A stretch of DNA of 64,000 nucleotides, taken from contig CAMVLW010000003.1 of NCBI GenBank assembly GCA_947168445.1, positions 1 to 64,000 on the forward strand, given 5' to 3'. The position numbers and the translations under genes are program-made. The DNA comes from an uncultured Clostridia bacterium (lineage in GTDB: Bacteria; Bacillota; Clostridia; Oscillospirales; Acutalibacteraceae). Of this stretch, positions 36,931 to 54,979 are shown in pieces (within the stretch, counting starts at the first letter, position 1; each line of letters begins with the position of its first letter). The notes under the pieces were generated by a model. The model was not told the origin of the DNA. It searched no databases and worked only from the letters and a program-made list of their open reading frames with translations.

Positions 36931-39900
36931 CTACTCCTTTCCCACCGGTTTCTTTTTCTTTCTGGATGAATAGATAACAGAGGTGACAATGGCTGCCAGC
37001 AAAACGCCGCTGCCGATATAAAGCATAATGGTACCGTCGGAGAAGATGGAGGAGGATGTTGACGCAGCCTTTACAGACTTCCAAATGGCATACAGGATAA
37101 CTTTTCCGCCCTTTTTCGAAGTAAGGTTGGTAACGGTCGCGTCCCTTTCATACATCGTGCCACTGCCGTCCGGCTGGGTGTTCCAGCCGACAAAGGTATA
37201 GTTGGTGCGTCTTAAAGTATGCGCCGGAAGCTGCTTCGGTTCGTCATAAAGGAAGGATGTGTTCACCGCCGAGCCCGAAACATCACTTTTTACTCTGCCG
37301 CTTGATGTAACCTTAGTACCACCGTTCTTATTAAATTCTACCGAATAATAGTTGGGCGCCAGAATTGCGTTCAGGGTAACGGAATCGTTAATAAAGGTAA
37401 AATCAAAATTCTGGATATAGTCGCCTGTCGCTTCGTTTGTTTCGGACAAATCATCATACTTGATGCCGGTATCGTCGTCGAATGACTCAATATAATATCC
37501 CTCGGGAACCTTTAGATTAGCAGCATGTACGGTGTCGCGCGAGCTGCCTGACGCATGAAATACTTCCTTGCCGTTCACGACAACACTCAGATGCAGCAGA
37601 AAGACGAATTTGACGTTAATCGGCTTGGTGATGGTCGGATAGACGTTGCTGCCGGACTTGAAGGTCATGTTGTAGGTGCTGTGGTGAATACTGTTATATG
37701 TGCTGCTCACTCTCCACTTGTAGCCCGAATTGTCAACCGGCTCAATGGTGTCCTCTCCGGGGAAGGAGACATTTTCCATGGTAATGTCGGAGCTTTTCAC
37801 CGTCCATTTGACGCGGTACTGGTCGACTGCCGAAACGGTAACGACGCCGCTGGTGTCAATTTGTTTTGGCGTGTCAATTTCAAAATCTTCGGGATAGGGA
37901 TATTTGTCGCCGCCGATGTTAATTCTTGTGTTCTTTCTTTCGTCGCCGTACACCTTATGGACAACGTGGTGGGAAGCGACGTTGACGTTGTTGATTTTAA
38001 CGGTAACGTCGGCTTCGAAGTCACGCGGAATCAGATCGGTGCCAAAGGATGTGATTACGTCAACCGAGCTTGGGAAGTAGTTGGGATCACAGTCATAAGT
38101 ATAGTTAATAGACTTGCCGTCTTCGTCAATAGATGTATGGAAATCATACGAGGTATGCAGCAGCGTTTCGTTGCCTATTCCCTTGTTCTCCTTGCCGTAG
38201 ATATGGAAATAGGCATAGTCCCAAGCGTCCGCGTCGTCGGTCACCTTGAGATAAATTTCAACATGATAGTTGTTGCGGTCACCTGACTTCATGGTGGTAA
38301 TCAGCTTAACCTCTTTGTTTTCTTCGCGGTCAACTTTGCTTTGATTGTTATCGCAGTAGAAAACATCCGCGGGAGCGCTTTCATTATATTGACCGTAGCC
38401 CGAAGTGGCGTTATAGTTGTCGATGCCGGGAGGCGTGATGCCGATTGATGAACCGATGTAGAATTGTCCCTGAATCTGGATAGGCTTGAATTCTCTGAAC
38501 CAGAGATTGGAGGAATTGCCGTTTGTTGTGCTGTCGGTGATTCTTGTTCTGCCGCCCAAGAGAATGAGGGAGCCGGCATGGAAATGGATTCCCGCGCCGC
38601 CGCTGAAGGCGCGGCAGTTGCTAATATCTCCGGCTTGTATGGTCAGCGTTCCGCTTGTATCCATATAAATGCCGCCGCCGCAGTTGTCCGCCGTGCAGCC
38701 GTTGATGGTGCAGCGGGTCAGGCTGAGCGTTCCGTGCGAATTCAAAGCGCCGCCGTTGGTTTTGCACGTGTTATTCGTCATGGTCACGTCGCTCAACGTG
38801 GCGGTTGTGCCGGAGTTTGCCCACAATGCGCCGCCCGCCTCGGAAGAAGTATTATTATTCATCGTTGCCTTCTTCACGGTCAGGGCGCCCTTGCGAAGAT
38901 GAATGCCCGCGCCGGTTTTTCCGTCATTGTTGTTGACGTTGGTGTTATCCAATACCGTGTTGCTGCCGTCAATATACAAGCCGCCGCCCCAGCCGGAGGC
39001 CTCGTTCGCGGCAATCGTACAATCGGTCAGCGTCATATTCTTGTGGTTGGTGACGCCGCCGCCGTTAACCGCATCTTTGTTTTGGGTGATATCCGTGTTG
39101 GTGATGGTTGCGTCGCCTGATGACCAGATTCCGCCGCCGCCGCCTTTGTTGTCGAGAGTGGCGTTGCTCTTGATTTTACAGCCGGAAATTGTCAGCTTGC
39201 CTAAGTTGGCGATACCGCCGCCGTCCTTGCCTTTGTTATTGGCGATTTCACAATTATTCAGCGTAGCGGATGAATTTGCGTCTATATACAGCGCGCCGCC
39301 GTTTTCGTAGCCTATGTTATTCTTGAATCTGCAATTTGTCGCCTCGATGGTGCTGTTTTCCAGATAAACACCGCCGCCGAGTTTTCCCGTGTTATCGGTG
39401 ATATTCATGCCCTTCAGAATCAGATTGCTGTTATTGAGAACACGAAAAGCGCTGCCGAGGCCAACGCTGTCGGCGCCTGTCACCGTGGAGGTGCCTTCGT
39501 TGCCGGACCCGATAAGCGTCAGGGTGGAACCGTTGTCAATCTTGATAGCGGTGGGACCCCCTCTGAGCAGCTTTATGGAATAGCCGTTGGTTTTAATCAC
39601 ATGGGCTTTTCCGTCGATGACATACAGCGTGTCTTTCAGTTCAATATTGTCCTTCAAGCTGATTTCTGTATTTCTCAGCGCTGTTCTCAGTGTTTCTTCT
39701 GTTTTGACTTCGGTTTCGGTATCTTCAAACGACTCGAAGTAGAATAAAGGGAGAATCGGAAATGTATTTGGTTCCCTTTCTACTCTTTCCAGTGTGACCG
39801 CACGGTCAAAGACGAATGCGGTGTCGGTTTCCTGATAGAACTCACCGTCAAGATAGGCGATCATCTTTCTATAAACTTTTTTATCATAGAAATTAAGATT

Positions 39901-40092
39901 TTTTATTGACGTTCCTTCTTCAAAATAGTCGCCTATTTCAAGGTTTAAGACCTTTGCTGATGCACCCTTATAGTATTCTCTTGCAGAAACGGAGGAAATG
40001 CCGATTGAAGCCATGCTCATGCACAAAAGGAGTACAAGCAAAACTGACAAAAGGCGCTTTGCTAATGATTTTCTTTTTTTCACCTTGCTCAC
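36931..40092 (-). CDS. Surface right-handed beta-helix protein with InlB B-type (Listeria-Bacteroides) repeat and C-terminal TM (~1053 aa)
   Basis: Likely GTG start (VSKVKKRKSLAKRLLSVLLVLLLCMSMASIG). Repeats GGGVYLENSTIEATNCRFKNN..., GGALYIDANSSATLNNCEIANN.... InlB-type NYTFVGWNTQPDGSGTMYERDATVTNLT. C-terminus SSIFSDGTIMLYIGSGVLLAAIVTSVIYSSRKKKK. Start is uncertain. Confidence 0.75.
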   Translation of the reverse strand: MSKVKKRKSLAKRLLSVLLVLLLCMSMASIGISSVSAREYYKGASAKVLNLEIGDYFEEGTSIKNLNFYDKKVYRKMIAYLDGEFYQETDTAFVFDRAVTLERVEREPNTFPILPLFYFESFEDTETEVKTEETLRTALRNTEISLKDNIELKDTLYVIDGKAHVIKTNGYSIKLLRGGPTAIKIDNGSTLTLIGSGNEGTSTVTGADSVGLGSAFRVLNNSNLILKGMNITDNTGKLGGGVYLENSTIEATNCRFKNNIGYENGGALYIDANSSATLNNCEIANNKGKDGGGIANLGKLTISGCKIKSNATLDNKGGGGGIWSSGDATITNTDITQNKDAVNGGGVTNHKNMTLTDCTIAANEASGWGGGLYIDGSNTVLDNTNVNNNDGKTGAGIHLRKGALTVKKATMNNNTSSEAGGALWANSGTTATLSDVTMTNNTCKTNGGALNSHGTLSLTRCTINGCTADNCGGGIYMDTSGTLTIQAGDISNCRAFSGGAGIHFHAGSLILLGGRTRITDSTTNGNSSNLWFREFKPIQIQGQFYIGSSIGITPPGIDNYNATSGYGQYNESAPADVFYCDNNQSKVDREENKEVKLITTMKSGDRNNYHVEIYLKVTDDADAWDYAYFHIYGKENKGIGNETLLHTSYDFHTSIDEDGKSINYTYDCDPNYFPSSVDVITSFGTDLIPRDFEADVTVKINNVNVASHHVVHKVYGDERKNTRINIGGDKYPYPEDFEIDTPKQIDTSGVVTVSAVDQYRVKWTVKSSDITMENVSFPGEDTIEPVDNSGYKWRVSSTYNSIHHSTYNMTFKSGSNVYPTITKPINVKFVFLLHLSVVVNGKEVFHASGSSRDTVHAANLKVPEGYYIESFDDDTGIKYDDLSETNEATGDYIQNFDFTFINDSVTLNAILAPNYYSVEFNKNGGTKVTSSGRVKSDVSGSAVNTSFLYDEPKQLPAHTLRRTNYTFVGWNTQPDGSGTMYERDATVTNLTSKKGGKVILYAIWKSVKAASTSSSIFSDGTIMLYIGSGVLLAAIVTSVIYSSRKKKKPVGKE

Positions 40093-40117
40093 TTCCTTTA
40101 TAATCTCCTTTGCCGGA

Positions 40118-42502
40118 TTACGAAATTCCGGCGTTTTCTTTTCTTTTTCTGGCTGATACAATTAACAGCGCCATTAAACCGCCGCCGACAAGTAAGCCGA
40201 TAATCGCTCCGAGCGCAATGGAACCGCCGGAGAACAGGGAGCCTGCCGCTGTTTGCTCCTTGACAGCAGCGACGTCGCGCTTAAAGTAAACATAGGTGCC
40301 GCCATAGGGGTCGTTGTAGCTGTATTTGTTTTTTTCGTCGGTAAGGTTTTGCACCGCCGTTTCACCGAACATGTGAATACCGGTGTCATAACCCTCAGGA
40401 GCGCCGCTGCCCAGCTTCATCTTCAGGGAATCCGCGAGAATCGGCGTACCGTCCTCATATTTCACGCTGTAGAGAGCAAGCCACTGCTGTCCGACATCGC
40501 CGTTGAGGTCGGCGCGGTCTTTGAGAATTTCGTGGTTTTTCTTTTCAACCGCACTTCCGCCTCCGTCGGTGCGGTTGCAGGTGACGACCTTGTAATAGGC
40601 GGTCTGGTTTTTAATCATCACCGTTTGCTTTTTGCCGTTGATGGTTTGGTCTTCGGTGATGTCAGCCTGCTCAACAATGTATTTGGGAATCGGCGCAAAA
40701 TCGACCTTGTAATACGCCATCAGTTCCGAGATAGTGGTGTAGATGGAAATACCTGCCAGCACCACCATTGCAATGGTGAAGCCCATAGCGAGATACCTGC
40801 ATACCGTTGACTTGGAAGCGAACTGTTTTAACGCATCTTTATATTTGTCGCTGGTTTCGATATTCTTTACGGTTCTTTCCAGTCCCTTCAATCTCACACT
40901 TGCCGCAATGCCTCTGGGATTTTGACTCCGGAAGTCCGCTAAATTCTGTTGTGCCTGTTTCAGCTCCGCAAATATGGAGGGTTCCATTTTGGAAGCAATC
41001 ACCGTACCAACTGCCGCGACGCCGGCTGCCGCCGTGCACATCCACATTGCAATGCCTAAGCCGCTGAGTTCAAAGGTGGATTTTACTTCCTGAGCGGCAG
41101 CCTTCGCGCGCAGCGCGTCATTTGTCAGCGCAACGCCGCCCTTTTCATAAATTTCACGGTTAACATCCTGATAGATGGAAGCGGGCTGAATACCGTCTAA
41201 CTTTGCGTCCTTAAAGCCGCTTTCGTCCGAAATTGCCATGACAATCATATCCTTGATGGAAATAAAGTCCAAGCCCGCCAGCTGACCGCCGGAAAGCGCG
41301 TCTACCATCGGATACAGAGCGCGGATATTTTTATCGCCGTTGAATTCCGCCACGTTCTTTTGGAAGAAATCCAACAGGTTTGTTTTGCCATAGTTGGTTG
41401 AGGCAAGGTGGTCGTGAGTAACAATATCCTCCGCCGCCATACCGCCCTGAACAACGGTTCCCTGATCCTTATACATCTTGACGGCAGCGTCCTGAACTTC
41501 CTTATCGGTTGAGTTGTCGGTCAGGGTGACGTTTGTTTCAGCGGAAACCGGCGTTTCGGCAACTTCATCCAACGAGTCAAGCGCGTTGTCATAGTTGAGC
41601 AGTATTTCGTTAAAGGCGCTCCACTTGTCGCGGATTTTCTTGGCGTCGTCGTTATATTTTTTGTCAAGCTCTTTGTTGATGTCAGTGGGAGTGAGAGTGG
41701 GATTTTCTTTTTTGATTTCTTCGGACAGCTTTTCAAGGCTTGTGTTCTGAAAGCGGTCAAGCCATGTGTCGTCTGAGGAGTCAGAAGCCTTTGTCAGCTC
41801 GGTTTCCATCAGCTGCACCGCCTGTCCGTTGCCCTGCATTAACAGGGTGACGATGTCGCAGTGGTTTTTCTTTTCGGTGTCGGACAGCTTGTTGTAGGCT
41901 TCGTCGCCCATCTCATACTTTGTCGGGTTGACGAGCAAATCACCCAGCGGTCTGCCACCGGTGTCGTCGTCGGTCAGCTTGTTAAGCAGGGTTTTGAAGT
42001 AGCTTGCGCGCTTGTAGTTAGCGGAATCCTGCGGCTTTTTCAGGTTTGCGCGGTATTCGTTGAGCGTTGCTACAAAACGGCTGACAAACGGTTTGATTTG
42101 AGAATCCATCTGAGTCTGCATCAGCTTGTCATAGTCCTCATAGCTGTAGCCGCCGTTCATGTTCATGACCGCAAGATCGGTCACCGCGTCGCTTGCGTCG
42201 TCGGTGGTTTTGTAGCCGAGATAGACGATTTTCTGGTTGGGACCCTGTTTGAGAGGACTCTTGGCGCCCGCGTCCTTGTTAAGATCGGCATATTCGCCTT
42301 GGTCGTCGGCAAGAATGGTGTAGCCGTCTGCCAAAAGCTCCTTTGAGGCTTCGTCAGAGGTTTTGCCCATGCCAACCTTGACCTCGCTGATATACTTCTT
42401 TCCGTTGCTCTCCGCGGCAGAAGCAATTACCTGTGCCGGAGCGAGCACCAGCATTGACACACAAAGCAATGCTGATGTAATCACTGTCACAAATTTTTTC
42501 AT
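40118..42502 (-). CDS. Surface paralog C (~794 aa): signal peptide, beta-prism-like ectodomain, internal TM pair, C-terminal TM
   Basis: Start set at MKKFVTVITSALLCVSMLVLAPAQ with SD ggaggt. YISEVKVGMG...DLNKDAGAKSPLKQGPNQKIVYLGYKTT. C-terminus GSLFSGGSIALGAIIGLLVGGGLMALLIVSARKRK. Confidence 0.8.
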   Translation of the reverse strand: MKKFVTVITSALLCVSMLVLAPAQVIASAAESNGKKYISEVKVGMGKTSDEASKELLADGYTILADDQGEYADLNKDAGAKSPLKQGPNQKIVYLGYKTTDDASDAVTDLAVMNMNGGYSYEDYDKLMQTQMDSQIKPFVSRFVATLNEYRANLKKPQDSANYKRASYFKTLLNKLTDDDTGGRPLGDLLVNPTKYEMGDEAYNKLSDTEKKNHCDIVTLLMQGNGQAVQLMETELTKASDSSDDTWLDRFQNTSLEKLSEEIKKENPTLTPTDINKELDKKYNDDAKKIRDKWSAFNEILLNYDNALDSLDEVAETPVSAETNVTLTDNSTDKEVQDAAVKMYKDQGTVVQGGMAAEDIVTHDHLASTNYGKTNLLDFFQKNVAEFNGDKNIRALYPMVDALSGGQLAGLDFISIKDMIVMAISDESGFKDAKLDGIQPASIYQDVNREIYEKGGVALTNDALRAKAAAQEVKSTFELSGLGIAMWMCTAAAGVAAVGTVIASKMEPSIFAELKQAQQNLADFRSQNPRGIAASVRLKGLERTVKNIETSDKYKDALKQFASKSTVCRYLAMGFTIAMVVLAGISIYTTISELMAYYKVDFAPIPKYIVEQADITEDQTINGKKQTVMIKNQTAYYKVVTCNRTDGGGSAVEKKNHEILKDRADLNGDVGQQWLALYSVKYEDGTPILADSLKMKLGSGAPEGYDTGIHMFGETAVQNLTDEKNKYSYNDPYGGTYVYFKRDVAAVKEQTAAGSLFSGGSIALGAIIGLLVGGGLMALLIVSARKRKENAGIS

Positions 42503-42550
42503 ACTATGTACCTCCGAATAAAAATATAAACAGTATTTTATTACATCATT

Positions 42551-42585
42551 ATCATAACATACGTTGGGGGACAATTAGGGGACAA
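42551..42585 (-). promoter_or_regulatory. Promoter of paralog C operon: tandem 11-bp repeat TTGTCCCCTAA TTGTCCCCCAA, 7 bp, -10-like TATGAT
   Basis: Plus-strand atcata acatacg ttgggggacaa ttaggggacaa. Same geometry as 47641-47675. Confidence 0.6.
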
Positions 42586-42610
42586 ATCGGCGTGATTTTT
42601 TCCGATTTAA

Positions 42611-42653
42611 AAAAATTTTTCGGCGGGCATACGTTTTGCCGTATGTCCGCCGG
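42611..42653 (-). terminator. Terminator of the paralog A-B operon
   Basis: 13-bp stem cggcgggcatacg/cgtatgtccgccg followed on the minus strand by AAAAATTTTTTTAAA. Confidence 0.85.
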
Positions 42654-42678
42654 AGGTTATTTGTGTTTTTCAGTTGTT

Positions 42679-45111
42679 TTAGGCTGCGTTTGTTTTCTTC
42701 TTTCTGCCGGCAATCCTTGTGATGATAAAGGTAATCAGGCAGCCCGCAGCCAAGCCGATGACCGCTCCGAGCACAAGAGAGCCGCCGGAGAACACAGAGC
42801 CGGCAGTTTGAGTGTCCGCGGAAACAACGTCACGCTTAAAGAAAACGTAGGTGCCCTCATTGGGGTCGTTGTAGCAGATGTCACCCTTGGTGGTGGTGAG
42901 GTTTTGCGCCGCTGTTTCACCGAACATGTGAATTCCGGTATCATAACCCTCAGGCGCGGGACCGTCGCCCAGCTTCACCTTTAAGGAATCCGCGAGAATC
43001 GGCGTGCCGTTATTGTATTTCACGCTGTAGAGCGCCAGCCACTGCTGTCCGACATCGCCGTTGAGGTCGGCGCGGTCTTTGAGAATTTCGTGGTTTTTCT
43101 TTTCAACCGCACTTCCGCCTCCGTCGGTGCGGTTGCAGGTGACGACCTTGTAATAGGCGGTCTGGTTTTTAATCATCACCGTTTGCTTTTTGCCGTTGAT
43201 GGTTTGGTCTTCGGTGATGTCAGTCTTTTCAACGATGTATTTGGGAATCGGCGCGAAATCGACCTTGTAGTATTCCATCAGTTCCGTGATGGTGGTGTAG
43301 ATGGAATAGCCTGCCAATATGACTCCTGCGATAGCAAAGCCGACTGAGAGATATTTGCAGATGTTTGATTTTAAAGCAAACGCTCTTGTCGCCTTTTTAT
43401 ACGCTTCTTCAGAAGGTCCTAATCGTTCAATTCTTTCCAGCGCAATAGCCTGTTTGTCTTTGTATATGTCTCTGATAATTCCAAAACCAAACTCACTTTC
43501 GGGTTTTGCAAGTTCTCGATTTATATAATTGAGCGCATTTCTGGCCTCGTTTAATTTTGCAACGTCTGCTTGCAGCCGGAGCATGCTTTCACTCGGTTTA
43601 AGACTCTTAAACGCAGCTAATGACGCTATCGCCGCGGCTGTGGAAGCCGCTGTGCAGCTCCAAAGAACGATTCCTGTCGTGCTCAGCGCAAAGGCAGGTT
43701 TCGGATTCTGTGAGCTCGCCTGTGCACGTATTGCATCGCTTGTCAGCGCAACGCCGCCCTTTTCATAAATTTCGCGGTTAACGTCTTGAAAGATTGAAAC
43801 CGGCTCCACATTGCTTATTTTCGCATCATTAAAGCTGTTTTTGTCAGCGACAGCCATCATGATCATATCCTTGACGGAGAGAAAATCCAGTCCGGCAATC
43901 TGACCGCTGGAAAGCGCGTCAACAATCGGATACAAATTGCGGATATTTTTTTCGCTGGTAAATTCCGACACGTCCTTTTGGAAGAATTCCAAGAGCGTGC
44001 CCTTGCCGTATTTGGACGCTTCAAGAAAATCGTGCGCAATGATGTCCTCAGCCGCCATGCTGCCCTTGACCACGTCCGCCTGGGATACATACGCGTCGGC
44101 AACTGCTTCTTTGATTTCTTGTTCGGACGAATCATCGTTCACCTTGATTTCTTTTACTTCCGTCTCAACAGCCTCGTCCAACTCATCGAGAGCATTATCG
44201 TAATTGAGCAGAATCTCATTGAAGGCGCTCCACTTGTCGCGGATTTTCTTGGCGGCGTCGTTATACTTTTTGTCAAGCTCCTTGTTGATGTCAGTGGGAG
44301 TGAGAGTGGGATTTTTCTCTTTAATCTCTTGTGTAAGAGCGTTTAAATCGGTTTTCAAAAATCTGTCAAGCCATGTGTCGTCTGAGGAGTCCGACGCCTT
44401 TGTCAGCTCGGTTTCCATCAGTTGTATCGACTCTCCCTTGCCCTGCATCAACAGAGTGAGAATGTCGCAGTGGTTCTTCTTCTCGGTGTCGGACAGCTTA
44501 TTGTAAGCTTTATCGCCCATTTCGTATTTTGTTTGGTTCACCAGCAAATCGCCCAGCGGTCTGCCGCCGGTGTCGTCGTCAGTCAGCTTGTTAAGCAGGC
44601 TTTTGTAATAATTCGCGCGCTTGAAGTTGACGGAATCCTGCGGCTTTTGCAGATTTGCGCGGTATTCGTTGAGCGTTGCGATAAAGCGGTCAACAAACGG
44701 CTTAATCTGGGAATTCATCTGGGTATTCATCAGATCCTCATATTCCTGATAGCTGAATCCGCCTTTCATGTTCATCACTGCAAGGTCGGTCACCGCGTCG
44801 CCTGCATCGCCGGTGGTTTTGTAGCCGAGATAGACAATCTTCTGGTTGGGACCTTGTTTGAGAGGACTCTTGGCGCCCGCGCCCTCGTTAAGATTGGCAT
44901 ATTCGCCTTGGTCGTTGGCAAGAATCGTGTAGCCCTCTGCCAAAAGCTCCTTTGAAGCTTCGTCTGAGGTTACACCCATGCCAACCTTCACCTCGCTGAT
45001 GTATTTCTTTGCGTTGCTCTCCGCCGCGGAAGCAATCATCTGCGCGGGACCAACTGCCAGCATTGACACACAGAGCATTGCCGAGGTGATGCCGGTTAAA
45101 AGCTTTTTCAT
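42679..45111 (-). CDS. Surface paralog B (811 aa)
   Basis: MKKLLTGITSAMLCVSMLAVGPAQMIASAAE, SD AAGGAG. Same architecture as paralog C. C-terminus GSVFSGGSLVLGAVIGLAAGCLITFIITRIAGRKKK. Confidence 0.8.
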   Translation of the reverse strand: MKKLLTGITSAMLCVSMLAVGPAQMIASAAESNAKKYISEVKVGMGVTSDEASKELLAEGYTILANDQGEYANLNEGAGAKSPLKQGPNQKIVYLGYKTTGDAGDAVTDLAVMNMKGGFSYQEYEDLMNTQMNSQIKPFVDRFIATLNEYRANLQKPQDSVNFKRANYYKSLLNKLTDDDTGGRPLGDLLVNQTKYEMGDKAYNKLSDTEKKNHCDILTLLMQGKGESIQLMETELTKASDSSDDTWLDRFLKTDLNALTQEIKEKNPTLTPTDINKELDKKYNDAAKKIRDKWSAFNEILLNYDNALDELDEAVETEVKEIKVNDDSSEQEIKEAVADAYVSQADVVKGSMAAEDIIAHDFLEASKYGKGTLLEFFQKDVSEFTSEKNIRNLYPIVDALSSGQIAGLDFLSVKDMIMMAVADKNSFNDAKISNVEPVSIFQDVNREIYEKGGVALTSDAIRAQASSQNPKPAFALSTTGIVLWSCTAASTAAAIASLAAFKSLKPSESMLRLQADVAKLNEARNALNYINRELAKPESEFGFGIIRDIYKDKQAIALERIERLGPSEEAYKKATRAFALKSNICKYLSVGFAIAGVILAGYSIYTTITELMEYYKVDFAPIPKYIVEKTDITEDQTINGKKQTVMIKNQTAYYKVVTCNRTDGGGSAVEKKNHEILKDRADLNGDVGQQWLALYSVKYNNGTPILADSLKVKLGDGPAPEGYDTGIHMFGETAAQNLTTTKGDICYNDPNEGTYVFFKRDVVSADTQTAGSVFSGGSLVLGAVIGLAAGCLITFIITRIAGRKKKTNAA

Positions 45112-45135
45112 AACCAATTCTCCTTTTTTCCTGAC

Positions 45136-47607
45136 TTATTCGGCTTTTTCCTTCTTCTTTTTGCCGACAATCCTTGTGATGACAAAGGTAATCAGGCAGC
45201 CCGCAGCCAAGCCGATGACCGCTCCGAGCACAAGAGAGCCGCCGGAGAACACAGAGCCGGCAGTTTGAGTGTCCGCGGAAACAACGTCACGCTTAAAGAA
45301 AACGTAGGTGCCCTCATTGGGGTCGTTGTAGCAGATGTCACCCTTGGTGGTGGTGAGGTTTTGCGCCGCTGTTTCACCGAACATGTGAATTCCGGTATCA
45401 TAACCCTCAGGCGCGGGACCGTCGCCCAGCTTCACCTTTAAGGAATCCGCGAGAATCGGCGTGCCGTTTTTGTATTTCACGCTGTAGAGCGCCAGCCACT
45501 GCTTGCCGACGTCGCCGTTGAGGTCGGCGCAGTCTTTCAGAATTTCATGGTTCTTCTTTTCAACATTGGTGCCGCCGCCGTCGGTGCGGTTGCAGGTGAC
45601 GACCTTGTAGTAAGCGGTCTGATTTTGAATCATCACCGTTTGCTTTTTGCCGTTGATGGTTTGGTCTTCGGTGATGTCAGCCTGCTCAACAATGTATTTG
45701 GGAATCGGAGAGAAATCGACCTTGTAGTACTCCATCATTTCCGTGATGGTAGTGTAGATGGAATAACCGGCAAGAAATGCCATGGCAATTGTAAAGCCGG
45801 CGGCAATATATCTGGAAATGTTAGATTTGGACACAACCTCTTTCATTGCGTTCTGATACTCTTTTGTGTTTGAATAGTTTTCGATATTCTTTATAGATGA
45901 TTTTATGCCCTGTTCTCTCATGTCGAGCATGTGCTGCGTCACGGAGTTACCCGGATCATTTTGAAGCATCTGCTCAAACCTGAGATAATCATTCTGTGCA
46001 TTTGTCAAGCTGTTTTGCAACTGTTGCATCCTCTGCTCAACGATTTTGTTGACAGTTCTTGTAACACTCGTAGTCGGCTTGATAGAGGAACCGATAATCA
46101 AGGAACCGGCTGCCGCCATTCCGGCGAAAGCAGTACAGCCCCAGAGCACACAGCCCAGTTTGCTCAGTTCAAAGGTTGTTTCCGTCTGCTGAGCGGCAGC
46201 CTTTGCGCGCAGCGCTTCGTTTGTCAGCGCCACGCCGCCTTTTTCGTAGATTTCACGGTTGACGTCCTGGAAAATGGAAGCCGACTCCATCTTGCTTGAA
46301 TCAACGTCATCAAAACCGCCGTCAATTGAAATGGCAATCATCATCAAATCCTTGATGGAAAGGAAGTCAAGACCTGCCAGCTGTCCGTCGGAGAGCGCAT
46401 CTACCATCGGATACAGATTACGGATGTTTTTCTCACTGCTGAATTCCGCAGCGTTCTTTTGGAAGAATTCCAGAAGTGTGCCTTTGCCGTATTTATTCAC
46501 TTCAAGGAAATCGTGAGCGGCAATATCCTCTGCCGATCTGCCTGCCTTGATCATCGCTCCCTGGGAATTGTACGCTTCTGCAGCCACTTCGGTAACTTCC
46601 TCTTTGGTTGGGTTATCGCTAAGCTTGACCTCTTTTTTGTCGGCTTCTTCTTCCATTTCGTCAAGCAGTTCGTCCGCTCTGTCATTCGCGTCATCATAAT
46701 TGAGCAGAACCTCATTGAAGGCGCTCCACTTGTCGCGGATTTTCTTGGCGGCGTCGTTATACTTTTTGTCAAGCTCCTTGTTAATCTCTGTGGGTGTAAG
46801 AGTGGGATTTTCATCCTTAATCTCTTTCGAAAGAGAATTCAAGTCGGTTTGCACAAAGCGGTCAAGCCATGTGGTGTCGGAGGAGTCAGCCGCCTTGGTC
46901 AGCTCGGTTTCCATCAGCTGCACCGCCTGTCCGTTGCCCTGCATTAAAAGGGTAAGAATGTCACAGTGGTTTTTCTTTTCTGTGTCGGACAGCTTGTTGT
47001 AGGCTTCGTCGCCCATTTCGTACTTTGTCTGATTGACCAGCAAATCACCCAAGGGTCTGTTGCCGGTGTCGTCGTCGGTCAGCTTGTTGAGCAGGGTTTT
47101 GTAGTAATTCGCACGCTTGTAGTTAGCGGAATCCTGCGGCTTTTTAAGATTTTCGCGGTATTCGTTGAGCGTTGCGATAAAACGGTCTACAAACGGCTTG
47201 ATTCTGGTGTTCATGTGGTTGTTCATCAGCGTTTCGTAGTCCTCAAAGCTGTAGCCGCCCCTCATGTTCATGACCGCAAGGTCGGTGACAGCGTCTTTCG
47301 CGTTGTCGGTGGTTTTGTAGCCCAGATAGACAATCTTCTGGTTGGGACCTTGTTTGAGAGGACTCTTGGCGCCCGCGCCCTCGTTAAGATTGGCATATTC
47401 GCCTTGGTCGTTGGCAAGAATCGTGTAGCCCTCTGCCAAAAGCTCCTTTGAAGCTTCGTCTGAGGTTACACCCATGCCAACCTTCACCTCGCTGATGTAT
47501 TTCTTTGCGTTGCTCTCCGCCGCAGAAGCGATTACCTGCGTGGGAGCAATAAACAGCATTGCCATACAGAGCACAGCTGAAGTTATGGCTGTCAGTATTT
47601 TTTTCAT
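45136..47607 (-). CDS. Surface paralog A (~823 aa)
   Basis: Start set at MKKILTAITSAVLCMAMLFIAPTQ with SD aggaggt. Same architecture. C-terminus GSVFSGGSLVLGAVIGLAAGCLITFVITRIVGKKKK. Stop is 25 bp from the paralog B start. Confidence 0.8.
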   Translation of the reverse strand: MKKILTAITSAVLCMAMLFIAPTQVIASAAESNAKKYISEVKVGMGVTSDEASKELLAEGYTILANDQGEYANLNEGAGAKSPLKQGPNQKIVYLGYKTTDNAKDAVTDLAVMNMRGGYSFEDYETLMNNHMNTRIKPFVDRFIATLNEYRENLKKPQDSANYKRANYYKTLLNKLTDDDTGNRPLGDLLVNQTKYEMGDEAYNKLSDTEKKNHCDILTLLMQGNGQAVQLMETELTKAADSSDTTWLDRFVQTDLNSLSKEIKDENPTLTPTEINKELDKKYNDAAKKIRDKWSAFNEVLLNYDDANDRADELLDEMEEEADKKEVKLSDNPTKEEVTEVAAEAYNSQGAMIKAGRSAEDIAAHDFLEVNKYGKGTLLEFFQKNAAEFSSEKNIRNLYPMVDALSDGQLAGLDFLSIKDLMMIAISIDGGFDDVDSSKMESASIFQDVNREIYEKGGVALTNEALRAKAAAQQTETTFELSKLGCVLWGCTAFAGMAAAGSLIIGSSIKPTTSVTRTVNKIVEQRMQQLQNSLTNAQNDYLRFEQMLQNDPGNSVTQHMLDMREQGIKSSIKNIENYSNTKEYQNAMKEVVSKSNISRYIAAGFTIAMAFLAGYSIYTTITEMMEYYKVDFSPIPKYIVEQADITEDQTINGKKQTVMIQNQTAYYKVVTCNRTDGGGTNVEKKNHEILKDCADLNGDVGKQWLALYSVKYKNGTPILADSLKVKLGDGPAPEGYDTGIHMFGETAAQNLTTTKGDICYNDPNEGTYVFFKRDVVSADTQTAGSVFSGGSLVLGAVIGLAAGCLITFVITRIVGKKKKEKAE

Positions 47608-47640
47608 TATCGTACCTCCTAAACAAATGTTTACATGCTT

Positions 47641-47675
47641 ATCATACCACACGTTGGGGGACAATTGGGGGACAA
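47641..47675 (-). promoter_or_regulatory. Promoter of paralog A-B operon: perfect tandem 11-bp repeat TTGTCCCCCAA x2, 7 bp, -10-like TATGAT
   Basis: Plus-strand atcata ccacacg ttgggggacaa ttgggggacaa. No hexamer lies 16-18 bp upstream as a credible -35. Confidence 0.65.
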
Positions 47676-47804: not shown

Positions 47805-49457
47805 ATGGAGAACAAAAAATTCACGAAAAGCCTTGCATTCAAAACAATGCTGCGGCTGTTTCTCACTGTAATCGTTTTATCGCTTGTCGCCAGCGCAGTT
47901 ATCGGCGTAATTACGTATGTCAATCTGTCGGCTGAGCTGCGGGACTATGCCTATGACGCGGCGCGAAAGGGAACGGCGCTGACCTCGGCAGACGCCGACG
48001 AGGACATTCACGCCAATATTGAAAGATATACGAAAACAGGGCATACCGACGAGAATTACAAAAATATCTTCCTGAATCTTCTGCTGATTAATGATGATTA
48101 TGAATTGCAGCGCTGCGACATTTTTATTCCCTACGAGAATCATATCACCTACCTGATGTCCACCACCGACAAGACAGCGGGCGAATCTCTGAATAAGGAG
48201 GCTCCCTATTACGGCAGCGAAAAGGACTATGTTTTAAAGGCGATTGAGGCGTCAACCAACACGGAATTAGACCCCGAAAAATCAAAAAAGGAAAATATTT
48301 ACACCGACAACGTCAAGGACGGCGTGAAGGTCGTGACCTATTATACGCCGGTGCTTGACAAAAACGGAAATGTTGCCGCTGTGTTTGCGGCAAGCTATTC
48401 CACCGACAAGGTCGTAGCCGTCATCTTCCGCACGATTGCCGGACTGATTGGCGTATCGCTTGCCGTTATGCTTATCTCGATGATTGTCTTTTTCTTCTCT
48501 ATCCGCAAGCATGTCATTAAGCCTGTTACCAACCTGACCAAGTCTGTACGCAAGGCAAAGGAGAGCGTTGAAAACCATCAGGCTGTGACGACGAATATCC
48601 GCACCGGCGATGAAATTGAGGAGCTTGCCGTTGCCTTTGAGGACATGAGCCGTGATTTGATTGGCTACATTGACGAAAACACCAGAATCACCGCCGAAAA
48701 GCAGCGCATTGATACCGAGTTGAGCTTGGCGACCGGAATTCAGGCAGGCATGCTGCCCGACAAATTCCCGGCGTTCCCGGACAGAAAGGATTTCGACATT
48801 TACGCTTCAATGAAGCCGGCTAAGGAAGTCGGCGGCGACTTCTACGACTTCTTTATGATTGACGAGGACAGACTGGGAATCGTCATGGCGGACGTATCCG
48901 GCAAGGGTGTGCCGGCAGCGCTGTTTATGATGCACTCCAAAATTCTGCTGAAAAGCTACACCCTGATGAAGCAAACGCCAAAGGCGGCGCTGGAGGAAGT
49001 GAACCGTCAAATTTGCGAGAACAATCCCGAAGAGATGTTCGTCACCGTTTGGCTGGGCGTGCTGGATTTAAAAACAGGCATGTTTACCGCTGTTAACGCG
49101 GGTCACGAAAGACCCGCCGTGAAGCAGGAAGGCGAGCACTTTGAGCTCTTTAAGGACAAGCACGGCGTTGTGGTCGGCTATATGGACGGCGTCCGCTTTA
49201 AAGAATATGAATTGCAGCTGACCAAGGGCGCAAAGCTGTTCCTCTATACCGACGGTGTTGCCGAAGCCACCGACGCGCACGAGGAGCTGTTCGGCACCGA
49301 CCGCATGATTGAAGCGCTGCGCTCCGCCGAGGACAAGTCGCCCAAGGAAATTCTTGAGACGGTTGACGCGGCGGTTGATGCATTTGTCGGCACCGCGCCG
49401 CAGTTTGACGACTTAACCATGCTGTGTATCGAGTACAAGGGAGCAAACGAAGAATAA
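47805..49457 (+). CDS. Membrane sensor with HAMP and C-terminal SpoIIE/RsbU-type PP2C phosphatase (550 aa)
   Basis: Two TMs flanking an extracellular sensor. HAMP-like segment IRKHVIKPVTNLTKSVRKAKE. PP2C motifs PAKEVGGDFYDFFMIDEDRLGIVMADVSGKGVPAALFM, FLYTDGVAEATD, DDLTMLCIEY. Confidence 0.9.
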   Translation: MENKKFTKSLAFKTMLRLFLTVIVLSLVASAVIGVITYVNLSAELRDYAYDAARKGTALTSADADEDIHANIERYTKTGHTDENYKNIFLNLLLINDDYELQRCDIFIPYENHITYLMSTTDKTAGESLNKEAPYYGSEKDYVLKAIEASTNTELDPEKSKKENIYTDNVKDGVKVVTYYTPVLDKNGNVAAVFAASYSTDKVVAVIFRTIAGLIGVSLAVMLISMIVFFFSIRKHVIKPVTNLTKSVRKAKESVENHQAVTTNIRTGDEIEELAVAFEDMSRDLIGYIDENTRITAEKQRIDTELSLATGIQAGMLPDKFPAFPDRKDFDIYASMKPAKEVGGDFYDFFMIDEDRLGIVMADVSGKGVPAALFMMHSKILLKSYTLMKQTPKAALEEVNRQICENNPEEMFVTVWLGVLDLKTGMFTAVNAGHERPAVKQEGEHFELFKDKHGVVVGYMDGVRFKEYELQLTKGAKLFLYTDGVAEATDAHEELFGTDRMIEALRSAEDKSPKEILETVDAAVDAFVGTAPQFDDLTMLCIEYKGANEE

Positions 49458-49533
49458 AGGCAACACCGCACACCGGAATGATGCGGTATTGCCTATCATT
49501 TCAGCGAAACATAAAAGAATAAGAGGAATCTAG

Positions 49534-49830
49534 ATGGAAATCACAATAAGCACAAACGAAACCGAATTGACAATCAGCCCTAACGGCCGCATAGACACCG
49601 CGACAGCCGGAGAGCTGCAATCGGTGGTAAATGACAATATCAGCGGCGTGACCAAGCTGACCTTTGATTTTAAAAACCTGAGTTACCTTTCTTCCTCCGG
49701 TTTGAGAGTGCTGCTGAGCACCCAAAAAATCATGAACAAGCAGGGAACAATGCGGTTTATCAACGTCAACAGCGACGTCATGGATATTTTTGACATGACC
49801 GGTTTGTCGGACGTCTTTCAAATAGTGTAA
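49534..49830 (+). CDS. STAS-domain anti-sigma factor antagonist (98 aa)
   Basis: SPNGRIDTATAGELQSVV...LTFDFKNLSYLSSSGLRVLLSTQKIM, with the conserved Ser region of SpoIIAA/RsbV. Confidence 0.9.
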   Translation: MEITISTNETELTISPNGRIDTATAGELQSVVNDNISGVTKLTFDFKNLSYLSSSGLRVLLSTQKIMNKQGTMRFINVNSDVMDIFDMTGLSDVFQIV

Positions 49831-49925: not shown

Positions 49926-50726
49926 TTAATAGTAGTTTTCAAGATGATAGATATAAACCTCTGCCCAGCTATACTGATTGAGGAATTCTCCCCGGTACAA
50001 ATCACGGGCTTCCGGCTTTCGTTCCAGATAATCGTAATAATCGCACTGAATCAAATTGGTGTTGACGGAATAGGCGTTGCGGCTGTGCTCAAGAACCTCC
50101 TCCATCTGATATTTGGAGAGGTCTTTTTTGAGGGACTGAACGGCTTTTTTCAGGTGCTCAAAGCTTTTTTGCTCGCTGCTCTCTTCAAAAATATTGGCGC
50201 AGATTTCTCCTCTGGTGGCGGAGGTGCCTCTCAGACAAACGAGATAAGCAAACAGCTCCTTGCCCTTTTGCCGCGAAAACTTGACCGGCTTTTCTCCGAA
50301 GAACACCTCAAAATTTCCGAAGCATTTGACATGCAGCGCTTTTTTCGCGGTCTGCCCTGCCCCGATTGGCTTGCGCAGGTTGTTAAGGGCTTCCCGCAGC
50401 TCGTTGTCGTCAACCGGCTTGAGCAGATAGGCGCTGACATAAAGCCGCAGCGCGTCCAGCGCGTATTCCCTGTATGCCGTCACCATGATGATATTAATAT
50501 CGGGATGATAGCTTTTGATTGTCTGCGCAAGCTCCAGACCGGTTTTTCCGGGCATATTGATGTCCAAAAACGCAATGTCTATCTTATTGTTATGTATTTG
50601 CTCAATAGCTGTGTCGTAGTTCTGCGCAAAAAAGAACACGTTTTCGTCCGACGGCGCCACTCTTTCGATGGCAAATTTCAAATCGTAGCGCATACTCATT
50701 TCGTCGTCTGCTATCAGTATATTCAT
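49926..50726 (-). CDS. Response regulator, REC plus SARP/BTAD-type winged-helix output domain (266 aa)
   Basis: REC: MNILIADDEMSMRYDLK...IDIAFLDINMPGKTGLELA...YLLKPV. Output: VKCFGNFEVFFGEKPVKFSRQKGKELFAYLVCLRGTSATRGEICANIFEE...LKKAVQSLKKDL. Confidence 0.85.
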   Translation of the reverse strand: MNILIADDEMSMRYDLKFAIERVAPSDENVFFFAQNYDTAIEQIHNNKIDIAFLDINMPGKTGLELAQTIKSYHPDINIIMVTAYREYALDALRLYVSAYLLKPVDDNELREALNNLRKPIGAGQTAKKALHVKCFGNFEVFFGEKPVKFSRQKGKELFAYLVCLRGTSATRGEICANIFEESSEQKSFEHLKKAVQSLKKDLSKYQMEEVLEHSRNAYSVNTNLIQCDYYDYLERKPEARDLYRGEFLNQYSWAEVYIYHLENYY

Positions 50727-50744: not shown

Positions 50745-52040
50745 TTATTGGCTTGCTTCGGGTATCACAATAACCGCCCGCGTGCCTTTTCCCGGCGTGC
50801 TTTCAATGATAAGCTCGCCCTTGCACATAATTTCCACTCTGTTTCTGGTGTTCGCAATACCGACAGAGTTCTTTCCCTTGGTTTGCAGTTCGTTAACATC
50901 AAAGCCCGCGCCGTTGTCCTCGATTGACACAATCCGCTTTTCTCCGTCGCTTTTGGTGGTGATTCGAATGACGCCGTTTTCACTTTGACCGCTCTTGAAG
51001 CCGTGGTGAACAGCGTTTTCCGCCAAGGTCTGGATAGAAAAGGGCGGAACGTCAAAATCGGTCGCGTTGATGTTGTACTCGCACTTGATGCCGTCTCCGA
51101 AGCGCTTCGACTGGATAAGCAGATAGTTTTTGACAATGTCCAGCTCTGTTTCAACCGAAATGCAGTCCTCCTCTGTCAGATAATCGGTAATGCCCCTGAG
51201 ATAATTGGAGAACTCCGTCACCGTTTCCGCCGCTTCGTTCGGCGCTGTCAGGCATTGAAAGCGGATGAGCGCCAGCGTGTTGAAGATAAAGTGCGGCTTC
51301 ATCTGTTGGTTGACGAGCTTTAGCTTTTCTTCGCTCAGCTTTTTCTCCTTTTCTATCAAGGACTGCACATAGCTCGTTTCATAGGAAATGAACAGGATAA
51401 TGACCGAGATAACAATGGCAAAGGTGACAAAGGGCGTTTCCGGGTAAAACAGCTTGATGATGATACCGATAAGCGGCAGGGTCAAAAAGGAAACAACCGC
51501 CACTCTTTCGATAATCAGCATGTATTTGCTGTATTGCATCGCAACTGCCAGCGTGGAGACAATGCCCGTGAAGCCAATCAAACTCGGCAGCCAGAAAAGA
51601 TACGGCATACGCACATAACGGCTTGCGTCGTCGATGCGGAAAATGAACGGAACGATTTCATTGATAATCAGCAGCACCGCACCGAATATAAAGATACCCC
51701 ATTCTACCAATTCCCAATAAAGCTTAAAGCCGCCGGAGCGTTTGTAGATGATTTGGGAAACATACTGCGCCGCAAGCGGAATACTCAGAAAGCTGAGAAA
51801 ATAGACGCCAAAGGTCGCCCATCTTTCAACGGCGTTTCCCACCTTTGAAGCGTCGCCGCGAAAAAGAATAGAGATACCGTCGCATAACATCAGCGCCGCC
51901 GAACAAAGCATGGCAAGCATCAGCTTGCGCGCGCCGGATTTGTCGAAATATCTTGTTAAAAGAATGGTCAGCGCAGCAATCAAGCTGAAAAAAGCGCCCC
52001 ACATCTCAATGGAAAAATACACGCTCTGAATCGTAGTCAT
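50745..52040 (-). CDS. LytS-like membrane sensor histidine kinase (His_kinase/HATPase_c) (431 aa)
   Basis: About six to seven TMs, then KLVNQQMKPHFIFNTLALIRF, LAENAVHHGFK, SIEDNGAGFD, VGIANTRNRVEIM. Confidence 0.88.
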   Translation of the reverse strand: MTTIQSVYFSIEMWGAFFSLIAALTILLTRYFDKSGARKLMLAMLCSAALMLCDGISILFRGDASKVGNAVERWATFGVYFLSFLSIPLAAQYVSQIIYKRSGGFKLYWELVEWGIFIFGAVLLIINEIVPFIFRIDDASRYVRMPYLFWLPSLIGFTGIVSTLAVAMQYSKYMLIIERVAVVSFLTLPLIGIIIKLFYPETPFVTFAIVISVIILFISYETSYVQSLIEKEKKLSEEKLKLVNQQMKPHFIFNTLALIRFQCLTAPNEAAETVTEFSNYLRGITDYLTEEDCISVETELDIVKNYLLIQSKRFGDGIKCEYNINATDFDVPPFSIQTLAENAVHHGFKSGQSENGVIRITTKSDGEKRIVSIEDNGAGFDVNELQTKGKNSVGIANTRNRVEIMCKGELIIESTPGKGTRAVIVIPEASQ

Positions 52041-53938: not shown

Positions 53939-54979
53939 TTAATAATCTCTTCTTCTTCTTGCGAGGAAGAATACGCCGATAGCAGCCAGCATTACGCCGC
54001 CGAGGATGAAGTAGATGGTGTCATTCTCGCCGGAGGAAACGGTGCTGGAAGTGGAGCTGCCGGAGCTGCTGCTGCCGGAGGAAGAAGAACCGCCGGTAGT
54101 AGAAGAACCGGAAGAAGAGCTGCTGCCGGAAGAAGAATCACTGCCGGAACCGCTGCTGCTCTCTGCGGACAGAGTGGACTTGGAAGCGTCCCAAGCAAGC
54201 TCTGCGCCTGCAGCCTTTGCCTTTGCAACCTGCTCCTCAACCTGAGACTTGCTCAGACCAAGAGTCTTAGCGGTATCGTCGATAGTCTGCTGCTCGTCCT
54301 TGCCGTTGAACTTGATAGCGTTCTTGATGCTCTTGTTGTCGGTGGTGCTGATGAAGGTATAGAATACGCTGACAGCATCCTGACCGGGCCAATAGGTGTC
54401 ACCGATGATGTTACCGATGGAGGTAATCATCAGGGGGTTGCCGTTCTTGCCGCTCTTCCACTTAACCTCGAAGCTCTTCTTGTTAGAGTCAACGTCGTTT
54501 TCTACCATGTTGCCGGTGCAATAAGCGGTGTCGCCGAAGTTGTCAGGAGTGATAATCAGGTTACAGGTCTGTACGCCCCAGTCAGAGGTGAAGATGCAGA
54601 AGGTGTGGTCGCTGAGGGTGTACTTATCGGAAAGGTCGAAGGACCAAAGATTGCCGCTGTCGTTCTTCATGTTACCCTTCTTGGAACCCCAAGTGATAAG
54701 CTCGGAACCGTTGTCGTTCAAGTAGAACGTAATCTTCTCGTTTTTCCAGTCAGACGGAACTTCGAAATAAACCATATTGCCTGCGCCGGTGCTTTCGGAA
54801 CCCTCATCCGCGCCTACTGCGGAATTGTCGTCTGCGCCTACTGCGGAATTATCATCCGCGCCAACGGATACAGCGTCTTCTGCTGCAACCGCATCGTCAG
54901 CTTCTGCCGCGTTAGCAACAACAGCAGTGCCGCCGATCATCATAGCAGCGAGCATAATGCTTGCTATTTTCTTGAACAT
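53939..54979 (-). CDS. Secreted CBM26-like surface protein with Ser/Gly-rich linker and C-terminal TM-RRRR tail (346 aa)
   Basis: Signal peptide; MVYFEVPSDWKNEKITFYLNDNGSELITWGSKKGNMKNDSGNLWSFDLS. Long SSGSS linker; YFILGGVMLAAIGVFFLARRRRDY. Confidence 0.75.
   Translation of the reverse strand: MFKKIASIMLAAMMIGGTAVVANAAEADDAVAAEDAVSVGADDNSAVGADDNSAVGADEGSESTGAGNMVYFEVPSDWKNEKITFYLNDNGSELITWGSKKGNMKNDSGNLWSFDLSDKYTLSDHTFCIFTSDWGVQTCNLIITPDNFGDTAYCTGNMVENDVDSNKKSFEVKWKSGKNGNPLMITSIGNIIGDTYWPGQDAVSVFYTFISTTDNKSIKNAIKFNGKDEQQTIDDTAKTLGLSKSQVEEQVAKAKAAGAELAWDASKSTLSAESSSGSGSDSSSGSSSSSGSSTTGGSSSSGSSSSGSSTSSTVSSGENDTIYFILGGVMLAAIGVFFLARRRRDY
54810..54857. repeat. 24-bp tandem repeat encoding (VGADDNSA)n
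   Basis: gcgcctactgcggaattgtcgtct / gcgcctactgcggaattatcatcc, followed by a partial third copy. Confidence 0.85.

Follow-up and report, generated by a model that had tools for sequence, protein, structure and literature searches.

Activation of promoters by SARP-type regulators has been described in the antibiotic pathways of Actinobacteria. Tandem 11-bp direct repeats in place of a -35 element also make up the pho box, which belongs to regulators of the PhoB/OmpR family. A further group of response regulators, COG3947, is presumably built of REC, wHTH and BTAD domains, the same domain order as in the regulator considered here. In AfsR-afsS and other Streptomyces SARP promoters (ActII-ORF4, DnrI), two 11-bp direct repeats lie just upstream of the -10 element and overlap the -35 zone (PMC10936776). 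Contacts in the AfsR complex are restricted to the first 8 bp of the repeat, leaving the last 3 unread, and residue T88 contacts template-strand G-36, base 5 in the repeat spanning -40 to -30 (PMC10936776). EmbR of Mycobacterium tuberculosis has an OmpR-type DNA-binding domain followed by a BTAD, and carries an FHA domain (PMC10936776). Our search of open-licence papers returned nothing pertinent to the motif or to SARP response regulators in Firmicutes, and no operator, regulon or recognition rule for COG3947-type regulators in Clostridia.

The locus described here lies in a stretch of 64,000 nucleotides analyzed as a whole (the window). It shares with the SARP promoters the position of the two repeats, the apparent restriction of readout to the first 8 bp, and an equivalent residue at the base-5 contact. 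It differs in that the regulator has a receiver domain ahead of its DNA-binding part, a paired histidine kinase and a BTAD cut to ~40 residues, and in that the targets are surface or exported proteins of Clostridia with extended -10 promoters. The REC-wHTH two-component architecture is shared with PhoB/OmpR regulators; however, PhoB ranks behind AfsR and EmbR by fold (7e-3 vs. 6e-5), the window regulator adds a BTAD-like extension, and octamers and targets are unrelated. EmbR, unlike the window regulator, has no receiver domain. From comparisons across genomes, we propose that a doubled 11-bp tag at surface-protein genes of rumen-type Ruminococcus is very probably read by a nearby two-component regulator that switches these genes on. 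SARP-type activation, here coupled to a histidine kinase, would then extend to the surface-protein genes of Clostridia from the gut and rumen, whose regulation has largely escaped description.

Probable tandem operators and the genes behind them

The minus strand reads, in order, TTGTCCCCCAA-TTGTCCCCCAA (47675-47654), CGTGTGG, TATGAT, AGGAGG (47620-47615) and ATG (47607-47605). Repeat 1 (47665-47675, approximately -41 to -31) and repeat 2 (47654-47664, approximately -30 to -20) are perfect copies, of which relatives keep the octamer TTGTCCCC. The 7-bp spacer between repeat 2 and the -10 element (47647-47653) holds an extended -10 motif, TRTGN, with a TG also found in the promoters of relatives, and the -10 element itself (47641-47646) stands in relatives at a fixed 10 bp from the second octamer. 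The sequence-only reading had described two head-to-tail copies, 7 bp and TATGAT, with TTGTCC 12 and 23 bp from the -10 element and never at 16–18 bp; these coordinates and distances proved right on re-reading. The hexamers that do lie 16–18 bp from the -10 element (CCAATT, CCCAAT, CCCCAA) are not -35-like. Interpretation of the 22-bp repeat as a conventional -35 was rejected because TTG sits 12 and 23 bp from the -10 element in every family member.

A second tandem operator, TTGTCCCCTAA-TTGTCCCCCAA (42564-42585, minus strand), precedes surface protein C and is followed by its own promoter (spacer CGTATGT, again 7 bp, plus TATGAT; 42551-42563, minus strand). Searching the window for the 22-mer at ≤3 mismatches gave these two sites (47654-47675, exact; 42564-42585, one mismatch), compared to 0 sites in each of 100 shuffles, and the 1.95-Mb genome holds no others at that threshold. 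The genome-wide scan proposed earlier thus yields two operators, each 7 bp from TATGAT. A chance origin of the repeat is ruled out by the shuffles together with the spacing counts from a scan of ~85,000 genomes and the period counts, both given below.

The first operator precedes surface protein A (45136-47607, minus strand; 823 aa, with a signal peptide and a C-terminal TM anchor). Surface protein B (42679-45117, minus strand; ~73% identical to A) begins 18 bp after A and lacks a separate operator, which fits the A-B operon that had been suggested. Surface protein C (40118-42502, minus strand; ~71% identical to A) has the operator at 42564-42585. Two TTG-start open reading frames that open within the operators (45136-47664 and 40118-42574) are artefacts; the true ATG codons are at 47607 and 42502. 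The surface proteins and a neighboring beta-helix protein (40118-47607 and 36931-40161) end in an S.FS.G - TM - KKKK tail without LPXTG, and the beta-helix protein has a sub-threshold match to NCBIfam GG_III-CTERM. A 346-aa protein encoded near the cluster (53939-54979) carries an LPXTG anchor (PF00746) and matches CBM26 below threshold.

On the other side of the operator, a SpoIIE-type PP2C phosphatase with a sensor region (47805-49457) is encoded divergently on the plus strand, followed by a small STAS-type protein (49534-49830, plus strand; STAS called by eye) that is kept between SpoIIE and the regulator. This pair (47805-49830) is conserved in many relatives and is possibly also under this operator. 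At one related locus (L144), it is the SpoIIE gene of the corresponding cluster that the operator immediately precedes. Next on the minus strand are the 266-aa response regulator with REC, wHTH and truncated BTAD parts that we propose as the operator reader (49926-50726) and, in operon with it, a multi-TM sensor histidine kinase (PF06580 plus HATPase_c; 50745-52040), which adjoins the regulator in relatives as well.

Fold of the regulator and its proposed mode of action

The receiver domain is clear (PF00072, 4.8e-22), with the cognate kinase gene (PF06580) adjacent. Placing the effector required profile and fold comparison, as a single-sequence PDB search gave a chance match only. A Foldseek search with the predicted effector (pLDDT 82) ranked AfsR first (8hvr, 6.2e-5), then EmbR (4.2e-4), with PhoB the best non-SARP match (6.9e-3); the profile search put EmbR on top (0.0011), followed by AfsR (0.0016) and, close behind, the OmpR-type DrrB (0.0025). 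The full-length model matches OmpR/PhoB regulators, and the effector alone is nearer to AfsR and EmbR. Pfam BTAD (PF03704) gave no match in the window regulator even at E ≤ 5, and Trans_reg_C (PF00486) was not reached. Only ~40 residues remain after the wHTH, the last 17 modelled at low confidence, compared to the seven helices of the AfsR BTAD, so this tail falls short of a full BTAD. The earlier label of SARP is borne out by the fold of the effector and goes too far for the truncated BTAD that Pfam models do not recognize; given the close SARP and OmpR-type profile scores, the lack of a Pfam BTAD match and the short BTAD-like tail, “SARP-like” is the safer term.

If the -10 element is set as -12 to -7, the repeats span -41 to -20, compared to -40 to -19 for AfsR. 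We consider it quite probable that the two-component system encoded in the cluster uses the tandem repeat as its operator, with the kinase-driven regulator activating A-B and C from extended -10 promoters. The LytS-type kinase (50745-52040) would phosphorylate the response regulator (49926-50726), whereupon two protomers of the regulator would line up head to tail in the -41 to -20 region. Each helical turn would take one protomer, which would read the initial 8 bp (TTGTCCCC) of its 11-bp repeat. By contacting sigma region 4 and RNA polymerase from this position, as AfsR does, the protomers would make up for the absent -35 element, and the extended -10 promoters of surface proteins A-B and C would be switched on.

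Activation with a regulator dimer in place of the -35 contact is most likely, in part judging from the lack of a -35 hexamer at 16–18 bp, which agrees with the activator dependence suggested earlier; with its extended -10, the promoter may nonetheless be constitutively active or subject to repression. Under repression, the regulator would bind the same repeat, with protomers over -41 to -20 blocking polymerase at a self-active promoter until a signal frees them. The TRTGN-TATAAT extended -10 elements are conserved and can function without a -35, so that the promoter might work alone, and the operator overlaps the core promoter. However, the placement of a pair of 11-bp repeats shortly before the -10 element, in place of the -35, matches AfsR activation complexes, the closest folds are those of activators, and no -35-like hexamer has been kept at 16–18 bp. 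Repression therefore appears unlikely.

Conservation of the promoter and linkage to the regulator

Sites within 3 mismatches of the 22-mer, selected by the 22-mer alone without requiring TG or -10, occur in 9 of 148 related genomes: this one, seven congeners and one weak match of the same order. Throughout the genus, and also in Lachnospiraceae, the promoter has been conserved, with 8 fixed and 3 loose bases per repeat. Its usual position is before the same surface-protein family, and the distance from the second octamer to the extended -10 (TGN-TATAAT) is exactly 10 bp. Within the genus, sites sit 5′ of close surface-protein homologues, with the first gene of each unit in the clusters compared having the repeat; one genome (G005) has three tandem copies. 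Upstream of more distant surface homologues (30–38% identity; G015, G035, G059, G037 C9), the TTGTCCCC repeat is absent. The comparison of orthologous promoters called for earlier shows that octamers and spacing are kept as flanks diverge. In the promoter alignment, the octamers, the extended -10 TG and the -10 are kept, with divergence in the flanks, the bases of the spacer and the 5′ UTRs. As octamers, TG and -10 had been the selection criteria for this set, free evidence there comes only from the diverged flanks and repeat bases 9–11.

Spacing was also counted in ~85,000 species genomes using the exact pattern TTGTCCCC-N3-TTGTCCCC-N(9-11)-TANNNT and no protein information. Sites with a spacing of 10 bp predominate (46, vs. 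9 at 11 bp and 4 at 9 bp; p = 3e-12). Most of these 46 lie beside this surface family and, contig permitting, this regulator, including sites in Lachnospiraceae; Eubacterium xylanophilum (L098), for example, has a spacing-10 site with a regulator at 62% and a surface protein at 43%. A minority look unrelated (e.g., Prevotella, Fictibacillus, Atopobiaceae).

Among 120 genomes of the genus, 13 have both the repeat (octamers with up to 1 mismatch) and a close orthologue of the regulator, 2 the repeat only, 2 the regulator only, and 103 neither (p = 1e-13), an association that shared inheritance of the cluster could also yield and that is thus not proof. In the two regulator-only genomes (G006, G085), contigs stop inside SpoIIE, with the surface gene expected next. 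G058, which has the repeat and lacks a close regulator orthologue, is only 80% complete.

Paralogous regulators and the proposed recognition of base 5

The same layout with different octamers was found in the neighborhoods of ~120 loci with paralogous REC-SARP regulators (~34–44% identical), including TTGTCACA, TTGTTGTA, TTGTTGCA, TTGCAAAG, TTGTCTTC, TTGTCCTC and TTGTCACG/TTGTTACG. Counting pairs of octamers that differ by ≤1 base, with a 10-bp gap and TGN before the -10, we found 60 sites with a period of 11 in 1.04 Mb of paralogue neighborhoods, vs. 0–2 for each period of 8–10 and 12–16. The corresponding numbers in 0.38 Mb around regulator matches, almost all of them in different genera of the same class, were 15 vs. 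0–2. An operator was detectable within ~5 kb for 65 of 134 regulators; the genomes are mostly fragmented MAGs, and some regulators have no detected operator because contigs end. No convincing operator lies near the second REC-SARP regulator of this genome (C35), and the TTGTTG operator predicted for it is absent genome-wide by exact pattern. Genes behind such promoters tend to have exported-type N-termini (26 of 34 vs. 41% background, p = 1e-4, by a crude hydrophobicity rule).

Because related bacteria use one layout and a separate tag for each regulator, the reading rule can be deduced by comparison. The codons of recognition helix alpha-3 (residues 185–204) are at 50115-50174 on the minus strand, with K194 at 50145-50147. 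A profile of 28 effector domains aligns gap-free to AfsR, and T88 falls at profile position 67, the position of K194. Covariation was assessed for 65 regulators with sites, in 36 clusters. Where the residue at this position is K, base 5 of the half-site is C in 62 of 62 cases; I goes with T (6/6), as does V (2/2), T goes with T or A in 88 of 92 half-sites (the remaining 4 have C), and base 5 is mixed in Q-type regulators. Examples from beyond the genus follow the same pattern: residue K and base C at L324, T and T at L321, V and T at L345. Of all wHTH residue-operator base pairs tested, K194-base 6 ranks first by mutual information and K194-base 5 second. The residue 194-base 5 association is significant at the cluster level (Fisher p = 3e-6), with few independent switches between K and non-K and partial confounding by phylogeny. 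With REC distance held constant, operator distance tracks that of the recognition helix (partial Mantel 0.39, p = 0.0005); REC distance given the helix has no positive effect on operator distance.

These data suggest that operator base 5 is determined in large part by the counterpart of AfsR T88, K194 in the window regulator, in agreement with the contact in the solved AfsR complex, and allow operator prediction for many uncharacterized regulators. The regulator at 49926-50726, named earlier as the candidate reader, is thus supported in silico by co-occurrence, the conserved cluster, the fixed -10 spacing, the paralogue octamers, the covariation of residue 194 with base 5, and the AfsR/EmbR-like fold. 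Were another transcription factor encoded outside the cluster the reader, the REC-SARP regulator would be linked by chance or control other genes, and a motif-bearing genome such as G058 would be explained. Against this, the octamers vary with the neighboring paralogous regulator, base 5 follows its recognition helix at the AfsR base-contacting residue, and the partial Mantel association survives conditioning on REC distance; we regard such a factor as improbable. That the repeat is non-functional, its copies persisting through recent gene duplication and shared ancestry, is very improbable: the three surface genes are indeed paralogues and the promoter copies at L012 and L013 are near-identical, but octamers and spacing are kept as flanks, spacer bases and 5′ UTRs diverge, and other regulator clades and genera show the layout again, with octamers that are unrelated.

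Returning to the cluster's own regulator as reader, its clostridial REC-SARP family would share one layout, with each member having its own octamer. It seems likely that this is an expanded family of SARP-like two-component regulators with private tandem-octamer promoters for exported proteins, in which the AfsR base-5 position largely sets operator identity. If true, sequence would suffice to read out regulons, and orthogonal pairs of regulator and promoter could be constructed.

Several other features were observed in the paralogous systems. Some operators (L178, L194) precede genes for ABC-transporter ATPases rather than exported proteins. At L309, the gene that follows a TTGTTGGA tandem operator encodes a response regulator, probably the system's own, which suggests autoregulation. 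Systems of the TTGCAAAG type (L208, L209, L216, L299) have 3–4 such promoters clustered, within ~0.6 kb where measured. An element, RTCACAGTCAAGGRAAACA, immediately follows the -10 in paralogous promoters of different octamer types (L208, L216, L190, L276 and others), and these same promoters have a TTT..AAAA tract ~11 bp before the first repeat, a position like that of an UP element.
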